A stretch of DNA of 42,828 nt from Lysobacter sp. (GTDB lineage Bacteria > Pseudomonadota > Gammaproteobacteria > Burkholderiales > Usitatibacteraceae). The notes beneath the pieces were generated by a model. That model did not search any database, had not been told where the DNA came from, and worked only from the letters and a program-made list of their open reading frames with translations. Where the stretch lies: NCBI GenBank assembly GCA_023700985.1, contig JAMPXV010000003.1, positions 1 through 42,828 on the forward strand, read 5' to 3'. The position numbers were made by a program, and so were the translations under genes. This document shows, piece by piece, positions 10,522 through 42,801 of this stretch; the stretch's first letter is position 1, and each line of letters begins with the position of its first letter.

Positions 10522-10588
10522 TCATCCGTGTTCATCCGCCGTTATCCGTGTTCATCCGTGTTCCCGGGACTTTTGCTTGTATAACTCC
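10522..10588 (-). repeat. Interspersed 10-bp-unit element, copy A (leader plus four units)
   Basis: Reverse complement GAGTTATACAAGCAAAAGTCCCGGG AACACGGATG AACACGGATA ACGGCGGATG AACACGGATGA; overlaps the lutB 3' end. Confidence 0.8.
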
Positions 10589-11964
10589 CTGAAGGTTCTG
10601 CCTTGGGGCGCCGGCATGTCCCGCCCCTTCGTCCACCCGTCGATCCCGGGCAGGGAATGGATCAGCCCCTCCCGCCCGCCCAGCCAGCTCCCCACCCGCG
10701 CCCCCACCTTCGCGAAGAGCGCGTAGAGCGCCGGCCGGGTCGCCATGAAGCTCCACCCCGCGATCGCCATGCGCTCCGCCCAGGGCCTGAGCTTGCGGTC
10801 GAACTGCTGCTCGCGCAGCTTCCTCATCAGGTCCGGGAGCGGGATCTTCACCGGGCAGGCCACCGCGCACTCGCCGCAGAAGGTCGCCGCGTTGGGGAGG
10901 TCGCCCGCGTTCTCCAGGCCCACGTACACCGGGGTGAGGATCGACCCCATGGGGCCGGGGTAGACCCAGCCGTAGGCGTGGCCGCCCACGTTCTGGTACA
11001 CGGGGCAGTGGTTCATGCAGGCGCCGCAGCGGATGCAGCGCAGCATCTCCTGCAGGTCGCTTCCCACGAGCTTCGTGCGCCCCGCGTCGACGAGCACGAT
11101 GTGCATCTGCTCCGGGCCGTCGGCGTCGCCGGGCATCTTCAGGCCCGTCGTGAGCGTGAGGTAGTTGGTGATCGTCTGGCCGATGGCGGAACGGGGCAGC
11201 AGGCGGATGAGGGAGGCGAAGTCCTCGAAGGTGCCGATCACCTTCTCGATCCCGGTGATCACGCAGTGGATGCGCGGCAGCGTGGTCACCATGTCCGCGT
11301 TGCCCTCGTTGGTGACCGTGAGGGTCGTGCCCGTCTCGGCGATGACGAAGTTGGACCCGGAGATGCCCATGTCCGCCGTGAGGAAGTGGTCGCGCAGCGC
11401 CTCGCGCGCCTCGCGCGTCATGGCCGGGATCTCGGTCAGCCGCGGCTTGCCGTGCGCCTGCACGAAGAGCTCGGCCACCTGCTCCTTCGACTTGTGCACC
11501 GCGGGTGCCACGATGTGCGAGGGGGGCTCCTTGGCGAGCTGCAGGATGTACTCGCCGAGGTCCGTCTCCACCACCTGTATCCCGGCCTCCTCCAGGCGCT
11601 CGTTGAGGTTCACCTCCTCGGAGACCATCGACTTCGACTTGGCGACCTTCTTCACGCCGTTGCGGGTCGCGATGTCGACGATGATGCGGCAGGCGTCCTC
11701 CGCGCTCTCGGCCCAGTGCACCACCGCGCCGCGCCTGGTGGCGTTCCTCTCGAACTCCACCAGGTAGGCGTCGAGGTTGGCGAGCGCGCGGTCGCGGATC
11801 ATCGCCGCGTGCGTGCGCAGCTCCTCCCACACGCCGAACTCCGCCACCGCCCGCGCACGGCCGTCGACGAACTTGCCCTTGGCCTTCTTCATGTTCCCCT
11901 GCAGCAGGGCGTCGCCGAGCTTCTCGGTGGCGCGCTGCTTGAAGAACATGCTCTGGATTTGCAT
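10552..11964 (-). CDS. lutB: Lactate utilization iron-sulfur protein B (LUD plus 4Fe-4S)
   Basis: ORF 10552..12069; start at 11964 (MQIQSMFFKQRATEKLGDALLQGNMKKAKGKF); IRCGACMNHCPVYQNVGGHAYGWVYPGPMG, CGECAVACPVKIPLPDL. Confidence 0.9.
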   Translation of the reverse strand: MQIQSMFFKQRATEKLGDALLQGNMKKAKGKFVDGRARAVAEFGVWEELRTHAAMIRDRALANLDAYLVEFERNATRRGAVVHWAESAEDACRIIVDIATRNGVKKVAKSKSMVSEEVNLNERLEEAGIQVVETDLGEYILQLAKEPPSHIVAPAVHKSKEQVAELFVQAHGKPRLTEIPAMTREAREALRDHFLTADMGISGSNFVIAETGTTLTVTNEGNADMVTTLPRIHCVITGIEKVIGTFEDFASLIRLLPRSAIGQTITNYLTLTTGLKMPGDADGPEQMHIVLVDAGRTKLVGSDLQEMLRCIRCGACMNHCPVYQNVGGHAYGWVYPGPMGSILTPVYVGLENAGDLPNAATFCGECAVACPVKIPLPDLMRKLREQQFDRKLRPWAERMAIAGWSFMATRPALYALFAKVGARVGSWLGGREGLIHSLPGIDGWTKGRDMPAPQGRTFRELYKQKSREHG

Positions 11965-11979
11965 TAGCTGCCTCGAGTG

Positions 11980-12042
11980 ATGCGGGCGAAAATCTGTGGA
12001 AACGCCGATGAACGCCGATGCCCCGCCGATGAACGCCGATAA
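11980..12042 (+). repeat. Interspersed 10-bp-unit element, copy B (left arm of inverted pair)
   Basis: ATGCGGGCGAAAATCTGTGGA AACGCCGATG AACGCCGATG CCCCGCCGATG AACGCCGATAA; 59/63 match with the reverse complement of 12118-12180. Confidence 0.9.
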
Positions 12043-12117
12043 GGCAAGGTCGGGATCATGCGCCGACATTTCGCGAATGCAGTCGAGTCCAGCATCGCCG
12101 AACGCTCTGTGTCGAAT

Positions 12118-12221
12118 TTATCGGCGTTCATCGGCGGGGCATCGGCGTTCATCGGCGTCTCCAAAGACTCTCGCCCGCATAACTTCGCAGCGTCCATCGG
12201 AGTTCCCAAAGACTTTCGCAT
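12118..12221 (-). repeat. Interspersed 10-bp-unit element, copy C (right arm of inverted pair, plus a second degenerate leader copy)
   Basis: 12118-12158 is the exact reverse complement of 12002-12042 (41/41); leader repeated at 12190-12221 with 41-bp offset (ATGCGAAAGTCTTTGGGAACTCCGATGGACGC). Confidence 0.9.
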
Positions 12222-12224
12222 CCG

Positions 12225-12947
12225 TCAGCCCTCCCCCGCGATCACCTGCGCGAAGTGCAGCACCTTCGTCTCCCTGTCCCCGGTGCGGCGCAGGCGCCCC
12301 TCGATGTTCAGGAGGCACCCGAGGTCGCCGCCCACGATGGCGCCGGCGCCCGTGGCGCGGATCGACTCGCACTTGTTCTCGCACATGCGCGTCGAGATGT
12401 CGCCCAGCTTGATGGAGAAGGTGCCGCCGAAGCCGCAGCAGCGCTCGGCGCCGTCCATTTCGGCGACCTTCGCGCCGGCCATCTGCAGCAGGTAGCGCGG
12501 CTGCATCTTCACGCCCAGTTCGCGAAGCCCCGAGCAGCTGTCGTGGTAGGTGACGGTGCCGTCGAACCGGCCGGGCACCTTGTCGACCTTGAGCACGTCG
12601 ACGAGGAACTGGGAGAGCTCGTGCCACTTCGCCGCGAGCTTCTCGAATTCCGGCAGGTCGGGCTCGCCCTTGAAGAGGTCGTGCACCGTGGCGACCTTCA
12701 TCTGCCCCGAGCAGGATCCCGAGGGGGCCACGACGTAGTCGCAGTCGCGGAACTCGGCCAGCACCTTGCGCGCGAGCGCCTTCGCGACCTCGCGCCCGCC
12801 CGAGTTGTAGCCGGGCTGGCCGCAGCAGGTCTGGGATCCGGGCACCACGACCTCGCATCCCGCGCCCTCCAGGAGCTTCAGCGCCGCGAACCCGATCCCG
12901 GGCCGGGAGAGGTCCACGAGGCAGGTGACGAAGAGGCCGACTTTCAT
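12225..12947 (-). CDS. lutA: Lactate utilization (Fe-S)-binding protein A, CCG-domain
   Basis: 240 aa; MKVGLFVTCLVDLSRPGIGFAALKLLEGAGCEVVVPGSQTCCGQPGYNSG, YHDSCSGLRELGV, CCGFGGTFS. Confidence 0.92.
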   Translation of the reverse strand: MKVGLFVTCLVDLSRPGIGFAALKLLEGAGCEVVVPGSQTCCGQPGYNSGGREVAKALARKVLAEFRDCDYVVAPSGSCSGQMKVATVHDLFKGEPDLPEFEKLAAKWHELSQFLVDVLKVDKVPGRFDGTVTYHDSCSGLRELGVKMQPRYLLQMAGAKVAEMDGAERCCGFGGTFSIKLGDISTRMCENKCESIRATGAGAIVGGDLGCLLNIEGRLRRTGDRETKVLHFAQVIAGEG

Positions 12948-30625: not shown

Positions 30626-30642
30626 CGAGCAGTACCCCTTTG

Positions 30643-30689
30643 GAACACGGATGAACACGGATGGACACGGATAAAGGCGGATGAATGCA
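30643..30689 (+). repeat. Interspersed 10-bp-unit element, copy D (left arm)
   Basis: CCCTTTGG AACACGGATG AACACGGATG GACACGGATA AAGGCGGATG AATGCAG. Confidence 0.8.
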
Positions 30690-30744
30690 GGGCCGGACGC
30701 GGCGCCAAATGGATCGAGACCGCGCTTTGACTCCCTTCAATCAA

Positions 30745-30799
30745 ACATCCGTGTTCATCCGTGTTCATCCGTGTCCCCGTCTTTGGGTCATTCCGTGCG
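30745..30799 (-). repeat. Interspersed 10-bp-unit element, copy E (right arm, inverted relative to D)
   Basis: Reverse complement ...CCCAAAGACGGGG ACACGGATGA ACACGGATGA ACACGGATGT; 27/30 match with 30644-30673. Confidence 0.8.
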
Positions 30800-42733: not shown

Positions 42734-42801
42734 AGAGTTATCCGATCGAAAGTCCTGGGAAACGCCGATGAACGCCGATGTCACGCCGATGAACGCCGAT
42801 G
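42734..42801 (+). repeat. Interspersed 10-bp-unit element, copy F
   Basis: GAGTTATCCGATCGAAAGTCCTGGGA AACGCCGATG AACGCCGATG TCACGCCGATG AACGCCGATG; immediately upstream of the formyltransferase-like gene. Confidence 0.85.

Follow-up and report, generated by a model that had tools for sequence, protein, structure and literature searches.

The window, by which we mean the whole stretch of 42,828 nucleotides that was analysed, carries two neighbouring lut genes on the minus strand: lutA (12225-12947), encoding a cysteine-rich domain, and lutB, encoding LUD and LutB_C domains. Because the conserved start of lutB is the ATG at 11964, the open reading frame reaching 12069 is an over-extension. The gap between the two genes holds a palindromic element of about 209 bp, composed of two inverted arms and a core of about 79 nt with no recognisable gene (Table 1). 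An inverted pair had been described here in the original prediction, and its alignments can be read off the sequence: 11980-12042 matches the reverse complement of 12118-12180 at 59 of 63 positions, while 12002-12042 is identical to that of 12118-12158 over 41 nt. The pair stands, and its length of 63 nt does not: in a repeat search of the window, the arms reach 4 nt further out, giving 67-nt arms that are 93% complementary and 75 nt apart. This extension, a degenerate third arm and many further copies in the genome had been missed. The third arm is likely to be left over from an element that occupied the lut site earlier; the lutA-side arm of the orthologous elements in the relatives G001 and G004 is the equivalent of its sequence.

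Table 1. Features of the lut-gap element and related arms in the window.
Feature	Position	Strand	Remarks
Left arm	11976..12042	+	Outer stem AGTGATGCGGGCGAAAATCTGTGGAAA, then CGCCGATGAACGCCGAT-GCCC-CGCCGATGAACGCCGAT; the arm recurs at many places in the genome
Right arm	12118..12184	-	Inverted; 62/67 match to the left arm; linker GCCC as in the left arm
Core (loop)	12043..12117		75 bp by repeat-finder bounds; 79 nt from the innermost CGCCGAT unit
Degenerate third arm	12190..12230 (about)	-	Matches the right arm at 83% over 30 nt; overlaps the lutA stop
lutA-lutB intergenic gap with element	11965..12224		260 bp; empty or overlapping in G003, G005 and G014
Single arm, lut-element type	42736..42800	+	Adjoins the contig end
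Element of sister arm type ACACGGATGAACACGGAT (ACACGGAT type)	30640..30790		Arms of two different subtypes; core 82% similar at the orthologous G007 site
Half element, one ACACGGAT-type arm	10523..10588	-	In the gap after lutB

The very long hairpin that had been proposed for this unit is borne out by folding. The DNA of 11976-12184 folds at -89.3 kcal/mol, against -40.3 +/- 3.4 kcal/mol for shuffled sequences (z -14.6), and the RNA of the lutA-lutB gap, taken on the lut strand, folds with a z of -12.9. A search of the whole window with the Rfam 15 families returned no match above the gathering score.

Dispersal of the element is directly visible in the window's own genome (G000). The gap sequence gave 89 match rows there, both strands counted, which resolve into about 20 arm-core-arm units plus single arms; only pairs with arms at most 300 nt apart were collected, a limit that would leave out any parent element carrying genes. 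The arms, about 67 nt long, are built of repeated CGCNGAT units. Fifteen of the 18 elements scored in G000 lie between co-directional genes, two between convergent and one between divergent ones; over all loci the corresponding figures are 56, 10 and 1 of 67, with gene direction inferred from codon-position G+C, orthologs counted repeatedly and no background rate to set beside them, which leaves the near-absence from divergent gaps as the sole firm positional statement. Nested arms were found at the lut site of the window, in L013 and at site 7 of G007, which suggests that a newer element inserted into an older copy or recombined with it. At the last of these sites (L241), a single right arm is accompanied by two left arms in tandem, which are separated by part of an older core; this arrangement is probably an intermediate of recombination or insertion.

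Several further repeats were noted alongside these units. The superfamily is represented in two gaps of the lut region, namely the lutA-lutB gap and, with a half element, the gap directly after lutB. Single arms near 2400-2550 of L014, L021, L022 and L026 are situated just past the end of one gene and before the start of the next; as read from the sequence, examples precede panC-like and homogentisate dioxygenase-like starts. The genome also contains a second palindromic family, GGGACGGTTCTACAGAACCGGTCTATTC, with perfect arms of up to 86 nt and a core of about 31 nt, at L035 (G000:C14), L014 1397-1527, L017 3509-3615, L025 28-188 and L030 1413-1616. This second family resembles the repeats around the only RAYT gene of the genome.

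The two arms of an element share variants that are private to it. The linker between the arm halves varies from element to element (GCCC, GCCA, GTCA, CTCA, TTCA, GTAA, GACC, AACTGCA and others), and in G000, where more than ten different linkers occur, all 17 elements have the same one in both arms; the best of 100,000 permutations reached 8 matches of 17. Over four genomes, the linker agrees in 49 of 50 elements. Taken over the whole inner 40 nt, within-element arm identity equals or barely exceeds the permutation maximum in three of the four genomes, because arms are nearly uniform within a genome. The arms of an element therefore co-vary, and the independent evolution of the two arms that would have contradicted the original prediction is not what we see; its suggestion that a gene-conversion-like process maintains the palindrome agrees with these data.

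The same arms speak to the idea that selection maintains an RNA hairpin for processing or stabilising the lut mRNA, as an RNase III site or by translational insulation, much as was proposed for NEMIS in Neisseria. Such selection would be compatible with the strong RNA fold (z -12.9) and with the predominance of co-directional gaps (the setting of 15 of 18 elements in G000 and of 56 of the 67 in total). However, selection on RNA pairing should leave more G-U than A-C mismatches on the coding strand, and in the 56 elements between co-directional genes we counted 38 GU and 41 AC (p 0.82), although the count includes orthologous copies, which limits its independence, and a bias would be masked as well if copying were very recent. 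RNA-pairing selection on the arms thus finds no support in this balance. In addition, the core flips and changes freely (see below), related species have no element at lut, and Rfam offers no match. We consider this explanation unlikely and do not think that the lut hairpin is under selection as RNA, though its transcript would form a long duplex. The part of the original prediction that pointed to a regulatory hairpin specific to lut fails likewise, since the unit is dispersed (about 20 arm pairs in the genome) and its arm mismatches show no G-U bias. Linker sharing with no excess of G-U mismatches makes the symmetry of the arms look like the product of DNA-level copying rather than of RNA-pairing selection, and it is to DNA-level copying that the data point.

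Relatives within the genus and the family hold similar elements, and the sites they occupy are old and common to several species. The lut junction is occupied in G000, G001, G002, G004, G006 and G007 and, outside the genus, in G010 and G012, while no element is present there in G003, G005 and G014. At eight further sites, examined with one flank query each, G003 and G005 are empty wherever the site was found. The proposal that the unit is MITE-like is supported: it occurs at scattered places, and relatives differ in whether they carry it. Comparison of the lutA-lutB junctions gave empty sites, but a clean target-site duplication was not demonstrated: in some species the lut element is bordered by CTGA-like repeats, but these overlap stop and start signals, and the other sites have no common duplication. 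The arm-pair pattern occurs in 70 stretches of public genomes, mainly betaproteobacterial MAGs, and also in Geobacter, another deltaproteobacterium, Armatimonadetes, Lentisphaerales and Salinisphaera japonica. Among the plasmids, phages and viral contigs searched, nothing matched the element.

The type of arm found at a shared site depends on the genome. At such sites G000 carries CGCCGATGAACGCCGAT, G001, G002 and G004 carry CGCCGAT..TGCCGC, G006 and G007 carry ACACGGATGAACACGGAT, and G014 carries CGCAGATAAACACGGAT. The predominant types are CGCCGAT in G000, G001, G002 and G004 and ACACGGAT in G006 and G007. By exact pattern, the ACACGGAT pair occurs 82 times in G007 and 13 times in G000, and the four-unit CGCCGAT pattern occurs 36 times in G000, 39 times in G002, twice in G007 and not at all in G003, G005 and G006. 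The sisters G000 and G007 have flanks that are 95.9% identical, and their arm types nevertheless differ at lut, s1, s3, s4, s5, s7 and s8. From this combination of close flanks and different arm types it appears that, within a short time, one whole element took the place of another at each of the seven sites, although repeated insertion at favoured sites could have had the same result. Replacement is not universal, given that the ACACGGAT element of the window at 30640-30790 has been kept at the same site in G007 with a core 82% similar.

Core turnover was followed in the sisters G002 and G004 (95.7%). Random core pairs match at 0.57 +/- 0.07, with a maximum of 0.70, and against this range three of nine orthologous G002/G004 cores are kept (0.95, 0.95 and 0.99), one matches at 0.82 when inverted, and five stand at chance level. 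Inversion was also seen at lut, where the cores of G004 and G001 match at 0.86 but lie in opposite orientations relative to the genes; the core of G002 is different. The orientation of the core is thus variable among species, at lut as well as elsewhere, as is typical of an inverton, a segment inverting between inverted repeats. At L010 the cores of G001 and G002 match at 0.91 and that of G004 is different; the core common to G001 and G002 shows which side changed, G004 being the odd one out. An outer arm variant may persist in spite of a core swap (L086/L105 and L097/L100). Other cores, namely that of s8 and that of the window element at 30640-30790, drift vertically with no exchange.

Within G000 the cores of different copies are unrelated to each other, and the core consensus is weak (21.9 bits against 9.9 +/- 0.5 for shuffles). 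Their length is better conserved, with a mode of exactly 79 nt in 27 of 72 elements from several genomes. Related cores do occur at different sites, at 85% in G004, 79% in G002 and 70-89% in G007, the last across several sites and as expected after a burst. When the eight replaced cores of G002 and G004 were searched for in eight genomes, each matched itself alone, except for one 85% pair within G004. A search of 28 family genomes for seven of the replaced cores and for the core of the lut-gap element revealed no further source, and no resident donor core above 85% was found in the CGCCGAT family. Two side observations concern the interior of the cores. GANTC sites number 0.93 per core against 0.58 in shuffles, 13 of them at core ends (67 elements). 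In L064, the lut junction of G009, another inverted repeat (CCCGTTCGTGCTGAGGTATCGAAG...) lies inside the core and enlarges it to about 200 nt.

Two explanations of the changing cores deserve comment at this point. One is an assembly artefact, in which the inverted and swapped cores would come from errors of short-read graphs at the repeated arms; the genomes compared are for the most part fragmented short-read MAGs, and the window contig ends beside an arm. We regard it as very improbable: the element measures about 209 bp and its 67-bp arms are shorter than ordinary reads, the same architecture is present in single-contig genomes (G010; GR16-43, CP019169), and mis-joined cores should reappear elsewhere in the sister genome, which they do not. 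The other is a cassette system, with arms that serve as sites for a putative recombinase or are rewritten by a templated process and cores exchanged for ones from outside the genome. The privacy of the swapped cores to each genome, the length held near 79 nt and the outer arm variants that persist while the core changes (L086/L105, L097/L100) would all suit it. Yet the recombinase that such a system needs is hypothetical, single and nested arms occur, and the cores of s8 and of 30640-30790 drift with no exchange, so a cassette system seems to us unlikely, if slightly less so than the selected RNA hairpin.

Among known systems, the closest in architecture are the REPINs, REP doublets that form hairpins; in the GI doublets of SBW25, 71 bp separate the first residues of one invariant 16-mer and the other (PMC3116915). 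Like them, the element has two inverted conserved ends and a less conserved spacer, and it is extragenic, dispersed and hairpin-forming. It is tempting to suppose that, as a REPIN or BIME, it is mobilised in trans by a RAYT (a Y1 transposase), since it is an inverted doublet with a spacer of just this description and RAYTs are present in some of the genomes. However, the only RAYT of the genome (L035) is surrounded by unrelated GGGACGGTTCTGTAGAACCGTCCC repeats, element arms do not occur on both sides of the gene at any of 20 RAYT loci in relatives, where other repeats are found, and G002, with its many copies, gave no Y1_Tnp match. The element further departs from REPINs in its long arms (about 67 nt, made of tandem CGCNGAT units): neither 11976-12042 nor 12118-12184 shows the GTAG or CGTC tag that marks one end of a 20-40 bp REP palindrome. 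It has no link to a RAYT, and its cores flip or are replaced at fixed sites. Mobilisation by a RAYT is, in our opinion, quite improbable; Y1 transposase genes are the enzyme class we examined, and no mobilising enzyme was found among them.

Bacterial MITEs and palindromic repeats (Correia/NEMIS, ERIC, RUP, CIR and YPAL; PMC2229807) resemble the element in being small (100-200 bp), non-coding, intergenic stem-loops with terminal inverted repeats, and it shares the many copies of a MITE. It differs from them in that it is not A+T rich and has no TA ends, its near-perfect arms are much longer, its cores are unrelated between most copies in G000, and it has no demonstrated target duplication. The main texts on Geobacter describe families of palindromic multicopy sequences in intergenic regions with non-random insertion (PMC2996986, PMC2700814). 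Our element is similar to those families by description, not by alignment, and the CGCCGAT arm pair is also found in a Geobacter MAG; swapping and flipping of cores are not described in the main text of these reports. Flipping between close relatives of a segment enclosed by inverted repeats is likewise known from the minute inversions at chloroplast hairpin loops, for example at trnH-psbA (PMC2903610). Our literature search for the arm sequence yielded no paper containing it, and a search by topic gave no closer system. The chloroplast inversions are, to our knowledge, single loci, and we know of no dispersed family, swapping or multi-site homogenisation of arms among them. On our best reading, the kind of element—a dispersed MITE- or REPIN-like palindrome—is already known, and the swapping and flipping of cores at fixed sites together with homogenised arms is a variant feature.

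Overall, the lut unit probably belongs to a dispersed family of non-autonomous MITE/REPIN-type elements that form hairpins, with arms that are homogenised, cores that are flipped and content that is replaced in place. In such a scenario, hairpin or cruciform extrusion of the palindrome, most likely on the lagging strand, would allow template switching or recombination from one of its arms to the other, by which the core could be flipped and one arm copied onto the other. Recombination with other family members via the common arms, or their insertion, might replace cores and whole elements in place. One observation counts against this last step: a core taken from a resident element should have a near-identical donor, and the eight replaced cores had none in the eight genomes searched. 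The reading as a whole is also weakened by the failure to find a mobilising enzyme among the Y1 transposase genes or a clear target-site duplication, by the predominance of short-read MAGs among the genomes and by the near-uniform arms, which in three of four genomes leave little or no excess identity within elements over the inner 40 nt. A constant-length core repeatedly exchanged at fixed sites for private, apparently never-reused sequence, with arms rewritten genome-wide to a species-specific unit, might instead reflect an unrecognised exchange or renewal of cores that is cassette-like, templated or fed by inter-strain transfer, a possibility that we entertain with considerable doubt.

Small palindromic repeats are common in bacterial genomes, yet little is understood of the way in which they are copied and their palindromic form is maintained. 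The family presented here forms a natural time series, in which the same site in sister species holds the element intact, inverted, replaced or not at all. It separates the homogenisation of arms, which appears to operate at the DNA level and shows no wobble bias, from the turnover of cores, and both become testable. As the same arm units are found in distant bacteria, the process may be widespread.
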